Part shown: one piece after another, positions 50,276 through 63,905 of the stretch
How the letters are laid out: each line of letters starts with the position of its first letter
Position numbering within the stretch: the first letter of the stretch is position 1
Source of the DNA: an uncultured Sphingomonadaceae bacterium
GTDB lineage: Bacteria > Pseudomonadota > Alphaproteobacteria > Sphingomonadales > Sphingomonadaceae
DNA length: 64,000 nt
Reading direction: 5' to 3'
NCBI GenBank assembly: GCA_947493215.1
Contig: CANLQE010000002.1
Location: 62,001 to 126,000, forward strand
The notes under the pieces: model-generated
Seen by the model: the letters and a program-made list of their open reading frames with translations, nothing else
Databases searched by the model: none
Told to the model about the DNA's origin: nothing
Translations under genes and position numbers: made by a program

Positions 50276-50992
50276 ATGCAATCGCTAATCACCGCACCTG
50301 CCATGATGCAGGAGCTTCATTCAAACTTGCGCTCGACCACTTTGCGGTTTCGTGCAGGGCAACTGATATTTGACGAAGGTCAGAAAGCCACGCGCTGGTA
50401 CGAAGTGATTCAGGGTACGGTTCGCACGTGCCGCTTCCATATGGATGGCCACCGGCATTTGACCGGCTTTTTCTTCAGCGGCGATGTTTTCGGCGCTGAC
50501 TATGGCAACTATGGAACGGCAGCAGAGGCCGTAACCGATGTGATCGTGCGCTGTTACCGGGTCGGCGATATTACGGACGACTCCACGCCAAAGCCGCAAC
50601 TGGACGAAGCGGTATCGATATTGTTTCGCGCGATGTCGACGGCTCAGCGCTATCTGTTCATCATGGGGCACCGGACCGCGTCGGAAAGACTGGCCGCTTT
50701 TCTGCTGTGCCTGAAACAGCAAGCCAATGATGATCCCAATATTTTTGTGCCGATGTCGCGCAGTGACATAGCCGATTTCCTCGGCCTTACGGTGCACACG
50801 GTCAGTAGGACCTTTACCGATCTGGCGCGCCGCGGCCTGATCGAGATTAATGGCCGGAACTCCGTTATCATCACCGACAATGCCGGACTGTGCCGCCTCG
50901 CGGGCGAATATCAGGACAGCATGACGCCTGATGTCGACACCGACATTCACCTCGCAACAGATTTATGCCTCGGCGAGCTATCCGCCGCTTGA
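50276..50992 (+). CDS. Crp/Fnr-family regulator (FixK-like, no Fe-S cysteines)
   Basis: A 238-residue regulator with a cyclic-nucleotide-binding-like beta-roll (about 20-140: LIFDEGQKATRWYEVIQGTVRT, GFFFSGDVFGADYG), a dimerisation helix and a winged helix-turn-helix (MSRSDIADFLGLTVHTVSRTFTDLARRG). The N-terminal cysteines of Fnr are absent, so it is FixK-type. In the recognition helix HTVSR replaces the usual ETVSR, so its DNA site may differ from the FNR box. It is 33 bases upstream of the FapF-like gene and likely controls it or is co-transcribed with it. Confidence 0.92.
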   Translation: MQSLITAPAMMQELHSNLRSTTLRFRAGQLIFDEGQKATRWYEVIQGTVRTCRFHMDGHRHLTGFFFSGDVFGADYGNYGTAAEAVTDVIVRCYRVGDITDDSTPKPQLDEAVSILFRAMSTAQRYLFIMGHRTASERLAAFLLCLKQQANDDPNIFVPMSRSDIADFLGLTVHTVSRTFTDLARRGLIEINGRNSVIITDNAGLCRLAGEYQDSMTPDVDTDIHLATDLCLGELSAA

Positions 50993-51025: not shown

Positions 51026-52642
51026 ATGACCACCCATCGCTTTAGACCGTTAGCCGCCTTTATTGCCCTGCCCGTCGCTACCTTTTACGGCGGATCAGCT
51101 TCGGCGGCCACAGACGACGAAACAGCAACGGACCAGGTCCGTCCCGCTCCCCCATTAACCGCTGCCGAAGCCGAAGCAGAGTCTGCCCGGATCCTCGCCC
51201 GACTGAAGGCGGTACAGTCGCCCGTCGTTAAGCGAGCGGCGAAAGCTGAAAAAACACCAGTCACGCTGGTCGTTGCGCCCATCGAACAGCCTTCGGTCAA
51301 TCCGCGTCTTGCCATCGAAGCGCCAGCCGAAATCGCGCGGGCCAAAAATCCGCCAGTAAAACAGCCACCGGCAATGCAGGTATCAGCCAAAAAACCCGCG
51401 GCAAAAGTCACGGCTCAAGAAACGACCAATATCACCGCCGCTTTGCAGGCGATTCAATCCGAACTGTCGGAACAGAAACAGCTGATCGCCAGCCAAAATG
51501 CGCTGATCCAGTCGCAAAATGACAAGATCAAGCAGTTGGAATTGCACAATCAACTGGTGCGCGCCGCTGCGCCGGTTGAAACCCCTTTTGCCTTGTCGCA
51601 AATGCGCGCCGCCGGCATTCAGCCCAGTCAGGTCGAAACCGCCTCGGTGCAAATCGGTACAACACCGGATGACGAGCTGACCATGCCGGAAGGCCCGGTC
51701 GGTGAAGCTCCGCCAGCGGCCAATAACATCGAACAAAAGGTCGAGGCCGTGCCCGAGGGGCAAGGCGTGCTTACCCCCCGCGGACAGTTCGTGCTCGATC
51801 CATCGATCGAATATACAAGATCGTCGACAAACAGGTTGGTCTTTCGCGGAATTGAGCTGATTCCCGGCATCCAAATTGGCGCAATTGAAGCCAGTGACGC
51901 GGATCGCGATACCATTATCGGCACATTTGCGATGCGCTATGGCCTGACCAACCGCCTCGAGATTGAAGGCCGCGTTCCTCTACTTTATCGCAAAGACCGG
52001 ATTCAGGTCGTCCAGCAACGCGAAGAACAGATTACCCGAGAAGTCGGGCTGGAAGAAACCGACATAGGCGATGCTGAAATTTCTCTACGCTATCAGCTCA
52101 ATCGGCCTAAGCCGCAGAGCCCGATCTGGGTTGCTGGCCTGCGCGTCAAAACCGATACCGGCAGCAGTCCCTTTGAAATTCCGTTCGACGAATTTGGTGT
52201 TGCAACCGGCCTTGCCACAGGTTCCGGCTTTTGGGGCATTCAGCCTAGCATCAGTTTTCTGCTGCCCTCTGATCCTGTTGTAATCTATGGCGGGACTGGA
52301 TATCTGTGGAATATCGAACGCAATATCGACAGAGTCGTCGGCGATGTCCCCGTCGGCAAAGTCGATCCCGGCGATGCGATTAACGCCAGTGTCGGTTTTG
52401 GCTTTGCTCTCAACCCGCGCTTTTCTTTTTCGCTGGGCTATCGCCACAATTACATATTCTCTACAAAGACCGAGCTGGGCGACACGGTTCAGGAAAGCAA
52501 TGACATTCAAGTCGGATCGCTGAACTTTGGCATGTCCTATCGGTTGAGCGAGAGACAATCGCTGAACCTCGGTTTCCAATTTGGCGTGACCGAAGATGCC
52601 CCCGATGTCAGCATCGTTGCGCGGATTCCGTTCCGGTTCTAG
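51026..52642 (+). CDS. Outer-membrane beta-barrel protein with coiled coil, FapF-like
   Basis: A 538-residue protein. Signal peptide (residues 1-27), a long Ala/Lys/Pro-rich segment, a coiled coil at about 140-175 (LSEQKQLIASQNALIQSQND), a linker, and a C-terminal beta-barrel from about 245 ending in Phe (IVARIPFRF), as outer-membrane proteins do. The barrel begins with GVLTPRGQFVLDPSIEYTRS and includes MRYGLTNRLEIEGRVPLLYR. From memory this matches Pseudomonas FapF, the trimeric exporter of functional amyloid, in domain order and in these signatures. A related transporter of the same barrel family remains possible. Confidence 0.75.
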   Translation: MTTHRFRPLAAFIALPVATFYGGSASAATDDETATDQVRPAPPLTAAEAEAESARILARLKAVQSPVVKRAAKAEKTPVTLVVAPIEQPSVNPRLAIEAPAEIARAKNPPVKQPPAMQVSAKKPAAKVTAQETTNITAALQAIQSELSEQKQLIASQNALIQSQNDKIKQLELHNQLVRAAAPVETPFALSQMRAAGIQPSQVETASVQIGTTPDDELTMPEGPVGEAPPAANNIEQKVEAVPEGQGVLTPRGQFVLDPSIEYTRSSTNRLVFRGIELIPGIQIGAIEASDADRDTIIGTFAMRYGLTNRLEIEGRVPLLYRKDRIQVVQQREEQITREVGLEETDIGDAEISLRYQLNRPKPQSPIWVAGLRVKTDTGSSPFEIPFDEFGVATGLATGSGFWGIQPSISFLLPSDPVVIYGGTGYLWNIERNIDRVVGDVPVGKVDPGDAINASVGFGFALNPRFSFSLGYRHNYIFSTKTELGDTVQESNDIQVGSLNFGMSYRLSERQSLNLGFQFGVTEDAPDVSIVARIPFRF

Positions 52643-58005: not shown

Positions 58006-58875
58006 TTAATCAGCCAGCGGATCGCTGTCGGTATATTGACTAATCGCGCCGTCATCGAACGACAGACCAACATGCATTGCTTCGTCGATCATCCACAATA
58101 GCGGTCCGTCCGAGAATTTCCGCAATTCGCGCACGCCGCCACCAATCGCCCCATGATTGCCGGCAAACCAACGCTCTTGCAGGACGTCTTGATCGGAGGG
58201 ATTATCAGGCTGCTGCATCAACGTCACATCAAAAACCTCGCGATTTTCATCAATCGCTATGGCATGACGGGCGTGCTTGATGTGCGAACCGATCTGCGTG
58301 TCATGAAATTCATATTTGCGGTCAAACCAGTTGTCTACTGGAATGACAGGGATGGTATCAGGAATGCCCAATGCGCCGACCGTGTCCCAAGAGCCCATGA
58401 AGTGAATGTGCGGTGGATCGTAATCCTCCAAAATAGAGTTGGTATTGCGGAAGGTAACGCATTCATCATGGTCTGGCATGATATCGCGATCACGATATAG
58501 GGCCATGGCGCGCGGTATGGCCCGCAGTTTATGGCGCTTCACGATGCCGCAACAACGAATAAGTCCAGCCGGACTTCGGATCGAATAAGCGCCGCGGCTG
58601 AAACCGAACAGATAGATTTCGTCGCCTTCTTCAAAGTTCAAACTCAAGAAACTATAGGCTTCCTCAATCTGTAGATTGAGACCATGCCCAAAGGCACCAC
58701 CTGCGATCCTATCGACTGGGTTTTTCATACCGATGCCGGGGTCGTAATATAACGTCTGGGTGATATTTTGTTTGTCCGAAGGCAAAAGGAATTGAGCGAT
58801 TCTTTGGACATTGGTGGGCCAATCGTTATCCAAGCTTTCCCAAGGACCATCGCAACATATTATCAGTCTTTTCAT
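58006..58875 (-). CDS. DUF2235 alpha/beta hydrolase (T6SS Tle1-like fold)
   Basis: A 289-residue protein. The start RLIICCDGPWESLDND is the DUF2235 hallmark, followed by YYDPGIGMKN, GGAFGHGLNLQIEEAYSFL and the nucleophile elbow YLFGFSRGAYSIR (GxSxG). The Asp is probably in FMGSWDTVGALG, and a His in the C-terminal WFAGNHGAIGGG. Family members include Tle1 phospholipase effectors, but there is no VgrG/Hcp context, no secretion signal and no immunity gene that I recognise, so a housekeeping lipase or phosphodiesterase role is as likely. ATG 58875 has GGAG upstream. Confidence 0.88.
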   Translation of the reverse strand: MKRLIICCDGPWESLDNDWPTNVQRIAQFLLPSDKQNITQTLYYDPGIGMKNPVDRIAGGAFGHGLNLQIEEAYSFLSLNFEEGDEIYLFGFSRGAYSIRSPAGLIRCCGIVKRHKLRAIPRAMALYRDRDIMPDHDECVTFRNTNSILEDYDPPHIHFMGSWDTVGALGIPDTIPVIPVDNWFDRKYEFHDTQIGSHIKHARHAIAIDENREVFDVTLMQQPDNPSDQDVLQERWFAGNHGAIGGGVRELRKFSDGPLLWMIDEAMHVGLSFDDGAISQYTDSDPLAD

Positions 58876-59061
58876 GTGGCAATTCTCCACGCAAAACTGT
58901 GGTCAAACGAATCGGGTTTTAAGAGAATCGCCTTAAACACCGGTACCGCTGGGGATGATGCATATTTTGGAACGATCAAAAGAAAGCACCACAAACCCCC
59001 TCTCTGGCCCGTGATGCTTTCAGTTTCAGACCGGCCGGATTGGCAACCAGTCCGTTCTCCC

Positions 59062-59655
59062 TCAGTTTCCGAGGGCGCCAATACCGGCTTGACCAACGAC
59101 ATCACCAAGCGCGCTGTTGATCCGGTCCATCATCAAATCGCTATTGAAACTTTCATAGCCGGATAGATTGAGCGTCGCGTCGACCTCCTGAACCGCTTCA
59201 AAGCCGTTTGCTGTGTTAAGCAACATGTTCTGAACGCCGTTGGCAGTTTCATGGACAATCGCGGTCTGACCGTCATTGAGCAAATAAACCGGTGTATCAC
59301 CAACCCTCATACGGATGTTACCGTTCGACAGCACCCCGTTCTCAAGGGTCGAGACATCAACCGGGCTTAATCCCGCAGCCGCCGTTTGCATGGTTTCCGC
59401 GCCATCCGCGCTCCAGTTGAGCACCGTTTGCAGCATCAGTTCGCCATTCACATAGGTGCGGATATCGGCGCCAAAATTGACACCCAAACCGTTGACCACA
59501 AACCCGCCGCGCATCTTGTCCAGATCTTCGTCCGGAACAAGAGCGGGCAGACCAACCGCCGCCACGGGGTCAGCTTTGGCGGTTTGGGGTATAAGCAACG
59601 CGCCAGAAAACGCGATGCATGCGACCGTAGCGAAAATATTTTGTCTGTAGTTCAT
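59062..59655 (-). CDS. Secreted protein with double-glycine propeptide (C39 substrate candidate)
   Basis: A 197-residue protein. A Sec signal (FATVACIAFSGALLIPQTAKA, cut after residue 28) is followed by a short propeptide ending in DEDLDKMRGG (Gly50-Gly51), which fits the double-glycine leader consensus (acidic-Leu-x-x-hydrophobic-x-Gly-Gly). The remaining 146 residues start FVVNGLGVNFGADIRTYVNG and are Asn/Gly/Val-rich with beta character. ATG 59655 is the clear start. It lies 10 bases after the C39 peptidase gene, which probably matures it after export. Confidence 0.8.
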   Translation of the reverse strand: MNYRQNIFATVACIAFSGALLIPQTAKADPVAAVGLPALVPDEDLDKMRGGFVVNGLGVNFGADIRTYVNGELMLQTVLNWSADGAETMQTAAAGLSPVDVSTLENGVLSNGNIRMRVGDTPVYLLNDGQTAIVHETANGVQNMLLNTANGFEAVQEVDATLNLSGYESFNSDLMMDRINSALGDVVGQAGIGALGN

Positions 59656-59665
59656 GACTTGTCTC

Positions 59666-60472
59666 TCATCTGACGGTACCAACCCGCACGTCGATCAGTA
59701 ATTCGGGCGAGATTTGATACAGGGGGGGGAGGTGGTTCGTTAAGTTGCCAATAGTCGCGGTTGCGGACACTTGATCAGTGGGCGCGGTGGACCAGCGGTT
59801 CCAGTCGCCGGCGAGATTATAGCCTGGCAGCTTTTTAACTGGTCCACCGACAATCGCCAGAGCGACGCCGTTCCAATATTTCGCGAAATCCTCGGTGGAA
59901 TATTTGTTGATGCCGAGCACCGAATCGCCGACTAGCACCTGGTCTTTCGTCTGACCCTTGACCACGACAAAATGCTTAAAGCCATCGAGGTCGAGCAGCA
60001 CGATTACTGGTCGTTTCACTTGGGAAAGCTGATCCGGCGTCAATTTAAAACCTTCGGCGCGATAGCCAACGGATGTCAAATAATTGCGCATATCGAGCAT
60101 CGAAAATCCGACTTTCTTGATCGCTTCTTTGTCACCCAGATCCCACATCGCCTTGAAAGGCGTCCGTTCGCTGGTGGGCCGGTCATAATGATAGGTGAGC
60201 AAGGTCGCGACGGCTGCGGAACCGCAGCTAAAATCGTAGCGCTGGCGAATGACGGAGCGGAAAGGGATATCCCACCAAGTCATCACGCCGACATAATAGT
60301 CTCCGCCGGCCGATTCCCGTGCCAAACGGACTTCCGCTTGCGCTACGGAACTGCAAAACAGGCTGGCACCGGTCAGGGCCAGCAGTCCGCCCTTCAAGAG
60401 TGCTTTCACGCTCATCTTGAAGGGCGGAAAGGCTGGGAATAGGCCACACGGGATGGGGGGAGTGGGGTTCAT
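59666..60472 (-). CDS. Periplasmic C39 cysteine peptidase without ABC transporter (FapD-like)
   Basis: A 268-residue protein consisting of a signal region (KALLKGGLLALTGASLFCSSVAQA) and a single C39 domain. The triad is placed: Gln77 (oxyanion) and Cys83 in RQRYDFSCGSAAVATLL, His167 in GFKHFVVVKG and Asp183 in LVGDSVLG. Classical C39 domains sit on bacteriocin ABC exporters; this one is free and exported, as FapD of the Pseudomonas amyloid system. Its neighbours on both sides carry GG propeptides. ATG 60472 has AAGG upstream; ATG 60415 would start directly at the signal peptide. Confidence 0.9.
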   Translation of the reverse strand: MNPTPPIPCGLFPAFPPFKMSVKALLKGGLLALTGASLFCSSVAQAEVRLARESAGGDYYVGVMTWWDIPFRSVIRQRYDFSCGSAAVATLLTYHYDRPTSERTPFKAMWDLGDKEAIKKVGFSMLDMRNYLTSVGYRAEGFKLTPDQLSQVKRPVIVLLDLDGFKHFVVVKGQTKDQVLVGDSVLGINKYSTEDFAKYWNGVALAIVGGPVKKLPGYNLAGDWNRWSTAPTDQVSATATIGNLTNHLPPLYQISPELLIDVRVGTVR

Positions 60473-60486
60473 GGCCTATACCTTAC

Positions 60487-60858
60487 CTAATCAGTAATAT
60501 TGATCGTTACGGCCATGCCCGCCTGAAGCGAGGCCTGTGCGCCGGTGTTCATCACAATATTACCAAGACCGTTAAAACTGGACAGGGAATTGTCCGACAG
60601 GTTGATATCACCAGCGATCACATCGCCGCCGATTGTGTTACCGGTATTTTCCGAAGAAAAGGTCTGTTCGTTAATTGCAATCTGAGTGCCACCGCGCATC
60701 TCACCGAGTTCGTCCATCGACATGAGCGGGGATGCAGATTGCTGCGGAATAGTCGCGGGTGCCGGGGTCGCAGCACCCTGATCTGCCACCTGAGCGCTCG
60801 CATGGGATGCGGCCATTGCAAAGGGGGCTGTAATAAGAAGCCAATAATGCTTTTTCAT
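60487..60858 (-). CDS. Small secreted protein with double-glycine propeptide
   Basis: A 123-residue protein. Signal peptide to residue 22 (YWLLITAPFAMAASHASA), then a Pro/Ala/Gln-rich propeptide ending MDELGEMRGG (Gly56-Gly57), the same pattern as in the protein at 59062-59655. The mature 66 residues (TQIAINEQTFSSENTGN, GLGNIVMNTGAQASLQAGMA, TINITD) have the Asn/Gln/Thr beta-strand character of amyloid or pilin-like subunits. ATG 60858 has GGGAG upstream. It stands immediately before the C39 gene (14-base gap). Confidence 0.82.
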   Translation of the reverse strand: MKKHYWLLITAPFAMAASHASAQVADQGAATPAPATIPQQSASPLMSMDELGEMRGGTQIAINEQTFSSENTGNTIGGDVIAGDINLSDNSLSSFNGLGNIVMNTGAQASLQAGMAVTINITD

Positions 60859-60955
60859 CGTTCTTACTCCCGGTTGGGGGTGCGGGGCTGGGGATGGGGG
60901 GGCCGGTTCCATCGGCTGAAACCGGCCCGCCCTTCATCAAGTCAGCAAGTGACGA

Positions 60956-61465
60956 TTAATCGCCGCCGCCAGCGCCGCCGTCAGCTGCTGCTGCAGCGCC
61001 ATCACCAAAGTTGATGGTGCCTTGTGCTGCAATATTCGTTGCAGACTGAGCGTTGGAGTACACTCCAGTATTCCATGACTGGTTAGCGATACCAGCGAAG
61101 GCTGAAAATGCGTTACCGCGATTATAGTTGTTACCGCTGTTAAAGCCGACGCCCGTTGGGGTATCGTCTTCACCGTCCAGATCGACCATTTCGTCAAAAT
61201 CATAGGCAGTGTTGGTTGCGGTCAGCGTTTGCACAGCAATAACAAGATCGTTGTTGTTGTTGTTGTTGCTGTTGATGTCATCAGCCGTAAACGTGTTCGT
61301 TGTGCTGGCGTCTTGTGCCAGATACACGTCGAGCAGGTCGTTCACGACAATCGAGTCAGAGTTGTCATAAACGTCATTGCTCTGGTTTTGCTGAGCCATG
61401 GCAGGTGCGCCAACGGCCAAAGCAGCTACAGCAGCTGATGCCGCCATTAGTTTCATCGTTTTCAT
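60956..61465 (-). CDS. Asn-rich secreted protein, possible fibre subunit
   Basis: A 169-residue protein with a signal peptide (LMAASAAVAALAVGAPAMA, cut before QQNQ) and a low-complexity mature part: DINSNNNNNNDLVIAVQ, an acidic middle, then FAGIANQSWNTGVYSNAQSA and ATNIAAQGTINFGDG, ending in an Ala/Gly run with an acidic tail. This recalls amyloid repeat units of Fap subunits, but there is only one such unit. It lacks the MRGG motif. AAGGAG lies seven bases before the ATG, within a hairpin. First gene of the minus-strand C39 operon. Confidence 0.8.
   Translation of the reverse strand: MKTMKLMAASAAVAALAVGAPAMAQQNQSNDVYDNSDSIVVNDLLDVYLAQDASTTNTFTADDINSNNNNNNDLVIAVQTLTATNTAYDFDEMVDLDGEDDTPTGVGFNSGNNYNRGNAFSAFAGIANQSWNTGVYSNAQSATNIAAQGTINFGDGAAAAADGGAGGGD
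61251..61274 (-). repeat. In-frame AAC trinucleotide repeat
   Basis: Six uninterrupted TTG triplets on the + strand (61251-61268), then CTG and TTG, coding for an Asn run on the minus strand in the Asn-rich secreted protein. Slippage would change length without shifting frame. Confidence 0.7.
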
Positions 61466-61489: not shown

Positions 61490-61751
61490 CATCTTCTCTT
61501 TCCCTGCATAAACAAGGAAGGGGGTTAAGAGGCCCTGTTATGTGCCGCTTCATGCGACATCCCTTTGTTAGGCCGATTCGCTTTTTCGCTTGTTGCGATT
61601 TGGCAATTGTCCGAATAATTTTCGAATTTTGTTCAAAATCAGACCATTTTGTTACCGGCTAACAGCAGCATCGACGCCGTCCCTGTAACCGGTTATGCCT
61701 TCCCTACGAACTATAGAAAATTGTTCCGTTCAAAGGTTAGGGAAGACCCGT
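61490..61751. other. Divergent intergenic region
   Basis: About 260 bases between the C39 operon and the TVP38-reductase gene. It must hold promoters for both. I see no sigma-54 site, palindrome of note, or small gene; the TTCAAAATCAGACC area is AT-rich. Confidence 0.4.
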
Positions 61752-63905
61752 ATGTCGAAGAAGTTATTGTTGCTGGCTGTCATTTTGGCGGCGATATTCG
61801 CGTTTTTTCATTATGATCTAGGCTCCCAGCTGACGCTTGAGAACCTAAAAGCGCAACAAGACGCGATTGACGCCCAATATCGCGCTAATCCTGTCATCAT
61901 CATCGGCATATTCTTTTTAGTCTATGTAGGGATCACTGCCCTTTCCATTCCCGGTGCTGCAGTGATGACCCTCGCGGCCGGTGCATTATTCGGCGTTTTG
62001 GTTGGTACCATTGTTGTTTCCTTTGCCTCGACCATCGGTGCGACAATTGCGTTTCTCACGTCTCGCTATTTGCTCGGCGACTGGGTCGAGAGCAAATTTG
62101 GTCAGCGGCTGAAAAACATCAATGAAGGCATCAAGCGCGACGGCATATTCTACCTGATTTCCATAAGACTTGTTCCAGCCTTCCCGTTTTTCGTGGTGAA
62201 CTTGCTCATGGGCCTTACCAAAATGCGTGTCTGGAAATATTTCCTCGCCAGCCAGATTGGTATGCTCGCCGGTACGATTGTTTTCGTGAATGCCGGTACA
62301 CAGCTATCGCAAGTCAACTCGGTGGGTGAGGTCTTTTCGCTCCCCGTCATCGGTTCCTTCGTCTTGCTCGCCATATTCCCATGGATTGCCAAGGGGGTTA
62401 TCGGCTTTTTCAAGAACCGGAAAATCTACAAGAGCTGGACCAAGCCCAAGAAATTTGACCGCAACCTTATCGTTATCGGCGCGGGTTCCGGTGGCTTGGT
62501 ATCCTCGCTCATCGCTGCCACTATTAATGCAAAGGTCACTTTGATTGAATCCGGCAAGATGGGCGGTGACTGCCTGAACTATGGTTGTATCCCCTCCAAG
62601 GCCCTGATCAAAAGCGCCAAGGTTGCCGAACAGATGCAACATGCGGATCGCTATGGCCTGACCGCTAGCACGCCTAGCTTTGACTTTAAGAATGTGATGG
62701 CACGAATTGAAGATGTCATCAAAACCATCGAACCCCACGACAGCGTCGAACGGTTTGAAGGCCTCGGCGTCGATGTGGTGCAGGGCTATGCCAAGCTTAC
62801 CGATCCATGGACGGTGGAAATTGCACGCAATGATGGCGGCACCCAAACGCTAACCGGGAAGGCGATTGTCTTGGCCACCGGCGCGCGCCCGTTTGTCCCG
62901 CCGCTGCCCGGCCTCGAAGATACCGGCTATCTCACCAGCGATACGCTGTGGGAAGAAATGGCGAAACGCGATGCGGTGCCAGAAAAAATGATCGTCCTGG
63001 GCGGCGGTCCTATTGGCTGCGAATTGTCGCAATCCTTTGCGCGGCTTGGCAGCCATGTCACCCTCATTGAAATGGCCGACCGGGTCATGGGTATTGAGGA
63101 CGAGGATGTGTCCGAAATCGCGGCCAAAGCCCTTGGGGATTCCGGCGTCACCCTGCTCTGCGGCCATAAAGCGCTGCGCACCGAGATGAACGGGGCGCAG
63201 AGAATGATCATCGTCGAGAATGAAAGCGGCGAGCAATCCCTGCCCTTTGACGATTTGCTGATCGCCGTTGGCCGCGCGGCCCGGCTGGATGGTTTTGGCC
63301 TCGACAAACTGGGCGTGGAAACCGAGCGGACTTTGGTGACCAACGAGCATCTGCAAACCACTTTCCCGCATATCTATGCCGCTGGCGATGTGGCCGGTCC
63401 CTATCAGCTTACCCATAATGCCTCGCATCAAGCGTGGTTCGCGACGGTCAATGCGTTGTTCGGCCGGTTTAAGAAATTCAAGCCAAGTTATGAGTTTTTG
63501 CCATGGACGACATTTTTGGACCCCGAAATTGCTCATGTCGGCCTCAACGAACAGGATGCGAAAAAAGAGGGGATCGAATATGAGGTCACTAAATATGGCC
63601 TTGATGATCTCGACCGCGCCATTGCTGAAAGCGCGACCGAGGGCTTTGTTAAAGTGCTGACCCCTCCCGGCAAGGACCGGATTTTAGGCGTTACCATTGT
63701 CGGTCAAAATGCGGGCGAACTGCTCACTGAATATGTGCTGGCGATGAAACATGGCCTGGGTCTGGGCAAGATATTGGGGACCATTCACACCTATCCGACC
63801 ATGGCCGAAGCCAATAAATTTGCCGCTGGTGAATGGCGCAAAAAGCATAAGCCGGAATGGGCGCTGAAATGGCTGGAGCGCTATTTCAATTGGGCGCGAA
63901 GTTAA
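61752..63905 (+). CDS. TVP38/TMEM64 membrane domain fused to pyridine-nucleotide-disulfide oxidoreductase
   Basis: A 717-residue fusion. The N-terminal 235 residues are a VTT/TVP38 membrane domain (ILAAIFAFFHYDLGSQLTLENL, GAAVMTLAAGALFGVLVGTI, RLVPAFPFFVVNLLMGLT). From about 250 a mercuric-reductase-like flavoprotein follows: NLIVIGAGSGGLVSSLIAA (FAD), redox pair in GGDCLNYGCIPSKALIKSAK, MIVLGGGPIGCELSQSFARLG (NADPH) and a C-terminal dimer domain with GILTHTYPTMAEA-like IHTYPTMAEAN containing the catalytic His. ATG 61752 has AGGGAAG upstream. The electron acceptor is unknown; a membrane partner is implied. Confidence 0.93.
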   Translation: MSKKLLLLAVILAAIFAFFHYDLGSQLTLENLKAQQDAIDAQYRANPVIIIGIFFLVYVGITALSIPGAAVMTLAAGALFGVLVGTIVVSFASTIGATIAFLTSRYLLGDWVESKFGQRLKNINEGIKRDGIFYLISIRLVPAFPFFVVNLLMGLTKMRVWKYFLASQIGMLAGTIVFVNAGTQLSQVNSVGEVFSLPVIGSFVLLAIFPWIAKGVIGFFKNRKIYKSWTKPKKFDRNLIVIGAGSGGLVSSLIAATINAKVTLIESGKMGGDCLNYGCIPSKALIKSAKVAEQMQHADRYGLTASTPSFDFKNVMARIEDVIKTIEPHDSVERFEGLGVDVVQGYAKLTDPWTVEIARNDGGTQTLTGKAIVLATGARPFVPPLPGLEDTGYLTSDTLWEEMAKRDAVPEKMIVLGGGPIGCELSQSFARLGSHVTLIEMADRVMGIEDEDVSEIAAKALGDSGVTLLCGHKALRTEMNGAQRMIIVENESGEQSLPFDDLLIAVGRAARLDGFGLDKLGVETERTLVTNEHLQTTFPHIYAAGDVAGPYQLTHNASHQAWFATVNALFGRFKKFKPSYEFLPWTTFLDPEIAHVGLNEQDAKKEGIEYEVTKYGLDDLDRAIAESATEGFVKVLTPPGKDRILGVTIVGQNAGELLTEYVLAMKHGLGLGKILGTIHTYPTMAEANKFAAGEWRKKHKPEWALKWLERYFNWARS

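Follow-up and report, generated by a model that had tools for sequence, protein, structure and literature searches.

The locus described here raises the question of what an exported C39 cysteine peptidase acts on when it stands free of any ATP-binding cassette (ABC) transporter, and in which compartment it would do so. It lies in a stretch of 64,000 nucleotides (the window, numbered from its first letter) of contig CANLQE010000002.1 from an uncultured Sphingomonadaceae bacterium, and comprises a minus-strand operon encoding the peptidase and three exported-looking proteins, P1, P2 and P4, together with genes for an outer-membrane barrel and a regulator, 7 to 9 kb from the operon. We consider that the locus is probably a divergent, alphaproteobacterial, Fap-like two-membrane export system, in which the C39 enzyme would cut the leaders of P2 and P4 in the periplasm. 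The argument is made from the relationship of the peptidase, P4 and the barrel to FapD, FapE and FapF, respectively, and from a double-glycine (GG) leader motif that is conserved behind the predicted signal peptides and is linked to exported C39 genes. The features of the locus are as follows.

60956..61465, minus strand: P1, an exported-looking Asn-rich protein of 169 residues in which the GG motif is absent; candidate main matrix or fibre subunit
60900..60928, minus strand: GGCCGG-rich stem-loop (GGGCCGGTT/AACCGGCCC) between P1 and P2, the subject of a hairpin count among 30 loci
60487..60858, minus strand: P2, an exported-looking protein of 123 residues, with a signal peptide, a variable linker, a GG leader and a short conserved C-terminal domain
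60688..60717, minus strand: MDELGEMRGG, the leader motif of P2 (residues 48-57; M-12, E-8, L-7, M-4, G-2, G-1)
59666..60472, minus strand: FapD-like exported C39 cysteine peptidase (Q77, C83, H167, D183; PF03412, NF058616)
59062..59655, minus strand: P4, an exported-looking FapE-family protein of 197 residues with a GG leader (iterated hidden Markov model search, hhalign)
59503..59532, minus strand: DEDLDKMRGG, the leader motif of P4 (residues 42-51; V-12, D-8, L-7, M-4, R-3, G-2, G-1)
51026..52642, plus strand: FapF-family outer-membrane barrel, probable export pore (FapF structure 5o67, NF058560)
50276..50992, plus strand: Crp/FNR-type regulator, adjoining the barrel gene (PF13545, 3.1e-18)

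The original prediction, made from the sequence letters, gave the positions and strand of all four open reading frames (ORFs) correctly, but overlooked the FapF-family barrel and the Crp-type regulator. The likeliest starts of P2 (60858, MKKHYWLL...) and P4 (59655, MNYRQN...) lie inside the longest ORFs; from these starts each protein has a hydrophobic signal-like N terminus, followed by a linker and then the GG motif. The N terminus of the C39 protein has a long n-region, then a hydrophobic stretch with VAQA at its end, and its first ATG is the likelier start because the upstream extension is conserved in close orthologues (L002 and L003; L numbers denote the C39 loci and G numbers the genomes compared), whereas Met20 is not. 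As had been proposed, the N termini suggest Sec export of the enzyme and of both GG proteins, Sec signals being called throughout by reading of the sequence and a home-made hydropathy rule. A lipobox, which would also indicate export, may be present in some C39 relatives; a simple pattern marks 21 of the 93 genes, several of which are false hits as judged by eye.

The enzyme belongs to the Peptidase C39 family (PF03412, 2.7e-20, residues 74-207), and the predicted intactness of its active site is borne out by the invariance of Q77 (the oxyanion Gln), C83, H167 and D183 in all 36 homologues aligned, out of 93 exported C39 sequences found. The resemblance to FapD that had been noticed at the outset is confirmed in that FapD is its best NCBIfam match (NF058616, 2.5e-47), with FilB next (3.3e-29); the FapD score, 161 bits, does not reach the curated cut-off of 330 bits, and by these profile matches the enzyme is related to FapD, but not an equivalog. 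An AlphaFold (AF2) model (pLDDT 80.5) has PCAT1 and ComA as its top matches in a fold search of the PDB, with LahT at rank 12, and LahT, which has been solved with a bound leader peptide, is the top PDB match of the C39 sequence profile (8e-15). No C39 exporter was found in the source genome, where the sole C39 match is the free enzyme itself. In a tree of the C39 sequences the non-Fap rows and three Fil-type rows, the latter on their own long branch, form a supported clade (99/95) and the Fap-type rows are paraphyletic; the tree has a midpoint root only, placed on the very long L145 branch, because cytoplasmic ABC C39 rows are not in it as an outgroup.

The assignment of P4 to the FapE family comes from iterated search and profile comparison. 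A search seeded with P4 alone, over 6796 ORFs from 91 C39 loci, converged on 84 ORFs, of which 83, in 81 of the 91 loci, are the gene directly downstream of C39; the 84th is a P2-type gene (E=9.6e-4). The recruited set takes in proteins that NCBIfam calls FapE above its cut-off (L112, L115), and P4 itself gave no match to the curated FapE model (NF058559, cut-off 250 bits) at E up to 0.1. When the profile of 30 window-clade P4 proteins was compared by hhalign with that of 16 Fap-locus proteins drawn from the same iterated set, the probability was 92.5% (E=5e-7), and the pairing aligned PDEDLDKMRGGF with SDAELGQLRGRF. We conclude from these profile matches that P4 belongs to the FapE family. 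Across the phylum, scoring no more than 7 candidates in each of 398 genomes against a 40-sequence profile gave FapE-like genes in 33. By hand count, 32 of these 33 fall among 39 genomes with an exported FapD-like C39 (E <1e-18, open frame <500 residues), the latter coming from a genome sample of equal size whose labels agree; the sole genome outside the 39 is G268 (E=2e-4). Seven C39 genomes gave no FapE-like match (G461, G396, G402, G209, G333, G151 and G518), of which G396 does have a FapE-like gene by iterated search (L130). P4 has 57 database relatives, and the 8 whose names are shown are labelled hypothetical or uncharacterised. A fold search with the P4 model found no PDB relative (best E 0.03); the model has a short helix at residues 42-48 followed by RGG, in a block with pLDDT 63, and with correspondingly low confidence this arrangement resembles the LahT leader complex.

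The motif holds the most informative columns of this family. Among the 84 recruited proteins, position -7 is Leu or Met in all (78 and 6, respectively), -3 is Arg or His in all (82 and 2), -2 is Gly in all, and -12 is Val, Leu, Ile or Met in 82; position -8 is Glu in 41 and Asp in 13, and -1 is Gly in 61, Arg in 13 and Lys in 10. By sequence weight, -4 is Met in 41%, Leu in 26%, Gln in 14% and Tyr in 8%. G-2, R-3 and L-7 are the top three of 134 core columns by information content, followed by a Gly 13 columns past -1, and R49 and G50 are the sole invariant residues in an alignment of 40 sequences. Recruitment with the P4 profile is partly circular, the profile including the motif, but the genomic position of the recruits is free of this circularity. 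P2 and P4 of the window both satisfy the double-glycine leader rule (hydrophobic -12, -7 and -4; Gly at -2; Gly, Ala or Ser at -1), and as read from the residues the motif is the classical C39 leader rule moved behind a Sec signal. RGG is kept in 29 of 30 window-clade P2 proteins despite a signal-to-motif linker that differs in sequence and in length (between 33 and 56 residues under the rule applied, an artefact in L014 apart), which argues that the GG motifs are beyond chance. In a wider set of 62 P2-like sequences, -1 varies by eye (Gly, Lys, Met, Gln and Arg).

A linkage between a motif [DE]-L-x-x-M-R-G-G and exported C39 genes, put forward as a check of the original prediction, holds across many families in the looser form [LM]xxx[RH]G[GKR]. 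With the 93 C39 sequences reduced to 43 representatives at 70% identity, and with matches counted up to 80 residues past a hydrophobic stretch, the looser pattern occurs in 46 of 108 same-strand, signal-bearing ORFs adjoining C39, compared with 3 of 444 ORFs more than 3 kb away (Fisher 2.7e-33; ORFs being raw frames, shadow frames included); 1000 shuffles of the near set gave a mean of 0.53 matches and a maximum of 4. At least one match is present in 36 of the 43 representatives. Two other patterns were dropped. A strict one with a hydrophobic -4, likewise set after the motif had been noticed, matches in 18 of 43 loci, the other 25 showing Gln, Tyr, Lys or Ser at -4 (22/115 near, 3/180 far; shuffles mean 2.0, maximum 8), and a loose one discriminated poorly (32/115 near, 26/180 far; near-set shuffles mean 18.9, maximum 29).

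The residue at -1 follows the type of enzyme. Where a non-Fap C39 gene has a FapE-like neighbour, it is Gly in all 60 cases; beside Fap-type C39 genes it is Arg (13) or Lys (10) in all 23. Ten C39 genes have no recruited neighbour (L101, L103, L124, L138 and L140-L145), L101 nonetheless having ELSTKRGGY beside its C39 gene. Because the non-Fap and Fil-type C39 rows form one clade and the Fap-type rows are paraphyletic, the switch at -1 may be a single event. A comparison of 24 Fap-type with 38 other C39 sequences yielded many clade-specific positions, including 173, 180, 188, 106, 95 and 79, and no obvious acidic residue to hold Arg or Lys at -1. Leader-like motifs were also seen past the signal in the FapA-position proteins of Fap loci L117 (7502-7945 and 11770-12204) and L118 (DLASIRGRF, DLERVVGRY and NLQKVTGR), each of which is a candidate further FapD site. 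At the Fil-type loci L141-L144, the exported proteins beside the exported C39 have LxxVTGQ or LxxATGQ past the signal, and the motif-bearing protein of L143 matches DUF6160 and FilA.

The barrel is a FapF-family protein by homology, matching the FapF crystal structure 5o67 (6.2e-31 over residues 250-538) and, below its cut-off of 700 bits, the FapF model NF058560 (2.1e-41, 142 bits), with a weaker match to FilC (7e-17). In a search seeded with the window barrel, a homologue was found in 86 of 91 C39 loci, mostly no more than 1.6 kb downstream; in the other five (L002, L003, L005, L010 and L103) the gene may lie past the fetched stretch. Of 30 window-clade loci, 26 have a Crp-type regulator homologue adjoining the barrel, the four misses (L002, L003, L005, L010) being loci without a barrel in the fetched stretch, and in Parasphingorhabdus marina (L011) barrel and regulator stand directly beside P4 on the opposite strand. 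Together with the FapE-family membership of P4, the barrel 7 kb away turns what had been proposed as a stand-alone new maturation system into a divergent Fap-like locus. Within the genus, an exported C39 is present in 17 of 32 genomes; identity is at least 77% in 16, the source among them, and 40% in the remaining one. G557 gave a further match, the eighteenth, which is a frame of the ABC type. Three genomes each have both a Fap-type and a GG-type C39 locus (L091/L108 in G121, of the same family; L117/L136 in G233; L119/L135 in G178), and G233 has three exported C39 genes at two places. Loci L090-L096, from the window's own family, have FapE-like [RH]GK motifs and, by eye and iterated search, FapB/FapC-like upstream genes; from these genes, Fap proper seems to be present in Alphaproteobacteria.

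The upstream proteins are less readily placed. The mature part of P1 is 16% Asn and 60% Asn, Ser, Asp, Thr, Gln or Gly (53% over the whole ORF), with one Lys or Arg and no Cys, and its Asn content is at the 99.6th percentile among 2881 ORFs. An ORF stands in the P1 place in 24 of 29 non-Fap representative loci, with none in the other five; taking the most polar ORF, more than 55% of its residues are of these six kinds in 20 of the 24, the window P1 (53%) not being among the 20. The C-terminal domain of P2 is conserved over 62 aligned P2-like sequences and weakly resembles FapB repeats (hhalign probability 48%), with at most one repeat-like unit in P2. In searches of Pfam and NCBIfam with a limit of E=1, P1, P2 and P4 matched no model, FilA/DUF6160 included. 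Iterated search had joined P1 to FapC and P2 to FapB, but direct profile comparison did not support this: P2-FapC and P1-FapB were not significant, and a P1-FapC match (86.8%) was restricted to the signal peptide region. The weak likeness of P2 to FapB was retained, but on these comparisons P1 and P2 are not demonstrable FapC and FapB. No FapA-like gene was seen by eye in the operon, and family searches with P1, P2 and P4 matched none, no FapA-specific model having been run. By raw count, 26 of the 30 loci have a perfect hairpin of at least 7 bp no more than 143 bases past the stop codon of P1; L009, L017, L021 and L029 lack it, and L002 and L014 have other, weaker arms. The stem-loop is possibly an mRNA-stabilising or attenuating element, and may raise expression of P1 over that of P2.

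From the observed gene content, homologies, intact active site, and conservation and linkage of the motif, we infer Sec targeting, cutting, a step order, a pore function and a role for P1 as fibre or matrix subunit, as follows. Sec would carry P1, P2, P4, the C39 peptidase and the FapF-like barrel across the inner membrane. The first cut, by signal peptidase, would leave on P2 and P4 a propeptide with a classical C39 leader at its end (hydrophobic -12, Glu or Asp at -8, Leu at -7, Met at -4, Gly at -2 and -1). The periplasmic FapD-like enzyme would take this leader into its groove as LahT does and cut after GG, upon which the trimmed, FapE-like P4 and P2 would become able to work with, or to traverse, the FapF-like pore, and the Asn-rich subunit P1 would reach the surface by export. 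Leader cutting is favoured because the fold and catalytic residues of the enzyme are those of leader-cutting C39 domains, and a leader reading of the motif because, in the accessible part of PMC6363468, the ComA consensus (Leu-12, Glu-8 and Leu-7 before Gly-Gly/Ala/Ser) and the LahT groove residues (-4, -7 and -12, with -4 to -11 helical) match it.

Several points weigh against this interpretation. No report of cleavage at the motif was found, and in what is available of PMC5557850 the peptide-free stretch of UK4 FapE, at ~70 residues, is longer than the motif predicts. The enrichment pattern was fixed after the sequences had been inspected, and its p-value is to be read accordingly. Seven of the 43 representatives fail it (L103, L123, L124, L140, L141, L144 and L145); by eye L123 has ELGQQRGRY, probably uncounted owing to the signal rule, L124 VLATQTGKY, L103 VLKAVAGRE, L141 LSSVTGQ and L144 LEQATGQ, with no leader-like motif seen by eye in L140 and L145. 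Position -8 is non-acidic in 30 of the 84 proteins, a change of Glu-8 being tolerated without loss by LahT (excerpted in PMC6363468), and the Gln and Tyr residues at -4 mean that it is not strictly hydrophobic. In P. marina the P2 motif is broken, with loss of RGG (EELNRMSSGN). The Arg or Lys at -1 of all 23 Fap-proper cases lies outside the usual Gly/Ala/Ser, and the switch at -1, which may be one event on the tree, would in that case not be independent evidence.

The likeliest alternative, which we nevertheless regard as unlikely, is a canonical Fap amyloid operon, in which P1 and P2 would be FapC and FapB after extreme divergence, and P2 would nucleate a cross-beta fibre. The FapD-, FapE- and FapF-family genes, the Asn-richness of P1 and the faint FapB-repeat character of P2 would suit such an operon, as would the iterated P2 search, which reaches genes at FapB/FapC positions, possibly by drift; the direct comparisons with P1 and P2 and the family searches with P1, P2 and P4 described above, the presence of at most one repeat-like unit in P2 and the separate branch of the C39 enzyme speak against it. 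We also doubt that the motif serves for docking without cutting, with the C39 or the FapF-like protein binding it as a targeting signal and the peptidase acting elsewhere, such as on the FapF linker. C39-like domains that recruit substrate without proteolytic activity do exist in type 1 secretion (PMC6363468, in part), processing of FapF by FapD has also been proposed (PMC5557850, in part), and the Arg or Lys at -1 in Fap loci would suit docking; but the catalytic residues are invariant, the GG-type clade has the full cleavable consensus and, according to the accessible text of PMC5557850, the catalytic Cys is needed for secretion in Pseudomonas.

A Fil-like system, pilus or adhesin, that makes no amyloid could likewise account for an enzyme that matches FilB and a barrel that matches FilC, but the FapD and FapF models outscore both, P1, P2 and P4 match neither FilA nor DUF6160, and the Fil-type C39 rows sit apart in the tree; we hold this to be improbable. 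Least credible of all is a bacteriocin-like system, or one for contact killing, that uses small GG peptides, suggested by GG leaders beside a C39 enzyme, by the small size of P2 and by the gene downstream of P4, which encodes a Tle1-like type VI secretion phospholipase catalytic domain (PF09994, 1.1e-75; 58006-58890, minus strand). Against it are the FapE- and FapF-family partners and the free state of the only C39 match in the genome; moreover, inspection of L011, L016 and L018 by eye showed no Tle1-like gene next to the operon, a dedicated search not having been made. Elsewhere in the window are a LuxR-type regulator with an autoinducer-binding domain (PF03472, PF00196; 56914-57666, minus strand) and, divergent from the operon, a fused VTT membrane domain and FAD-dependent pyridine nucleotide-disulphide oxidoreductase (61695-63905, plus strand).

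The periplasmic leader-cutting interpretation bears on what is known of FapD, here from partial versions of the sources cited. In Pseudomonas, FapD is exported, its C38A mutation blocks FapC secretion and FapE is the protein with N-terminal peptides missing (PMC5557850); a 2025 review has FapD 'thought to' process FapE and FapF (PMC12822426). The need of exported FapD for its active-site Cys is already in print (PMC5557850), and trimming of FapE by FapD, at its N terminus, was suspected before (PMC12822426). What stands of the proposal that the GG-propeptide partners are undescribed, and is new here, is the leader motif: no description of a FapE leader signature was found in the literature searched, a coverage that most subscription journals lie outside. 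The FapE N-terminal leader signature, in canonical GG form in the window clade, names a specific candidate bond for FapD and is the valuable part of this work, reducing the question of the FapD substrate to one mass-spectrometry experiment. If the bond is cut, a C39 leader rule known from ABC export in the cytoplasm would be shown to have been transferred to the periplasm. With somewhat more doubt than conviction, we further suggest that Fap, Fil and the third class of exported C39 share one code, a C39 leader behind a Sec signal, which would single out FapE-family as well as P2-type proteins for a cut in the periplasm that clears them for export by the FapF-family pore, with -1 (Gly, Arg/Lys or Gln) switched together with the enzyme clade; the near-invariant L-x-x-x-R-G of FapE would then be the long-sought FapD site. 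The locus also extends Fap-like systems to Alphaproteobacteria, outside the Beta-, Gamma- and Deltaproteobacteria to which the 2013 survey confined Fap, with fapA as the commonest loss (PMC3792158, in part). From sections of later surveys, fapD-fapF pairs occur in five further phyla (2018; PMC6173800), and a 2025 GTDB survey would miss loci like this one because it demanded FapBC repeats (PMC12392863).

Comparison with known systems places the locus nearest to Pseudomonas Fap (FapABCDEF), with which it shares an exported C39 enzyme (FapD), a FapE-family gene directly downstream, a FapF-family barrel and polar subunits upstream. It differs in being without demonstrable FapA, FapB or FapC, in having an additional GG-leader protein, P2, ahead of the C39 gene, in the Gly rather than Arg/Lys at -1 of its leader, in the placement of barrel and regulator 7 kb away on the opposite strand, and in its alphaproteobacterial host. 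The putative Fil pilus system of Acinetobacter (the FilA, FilB and FilC models of NCBIfam) also sets an exported C39 beside a FapF/FilC-family barrel, and at Fil-type loci L141-L143 an upstream exported protein likewise has a post-signal motif, LxxVTGQ; but the subunit differs, the motif ends in Gly-Gln rather than Gly-Gly, and the Fil C39 is on a long separate branch. With the AMS/PCAT ABC exporters (LahT, PCAT1, ComA) the locus has in common the C39 fold, the catalytic residues and the leader rule at -12, -8, -7, -4, -2 and -1, whereas its own enzyme is free and exported, without an ABC transporter part, and its leader stands behind a Sec signal, such that cutting would be periplasmic.

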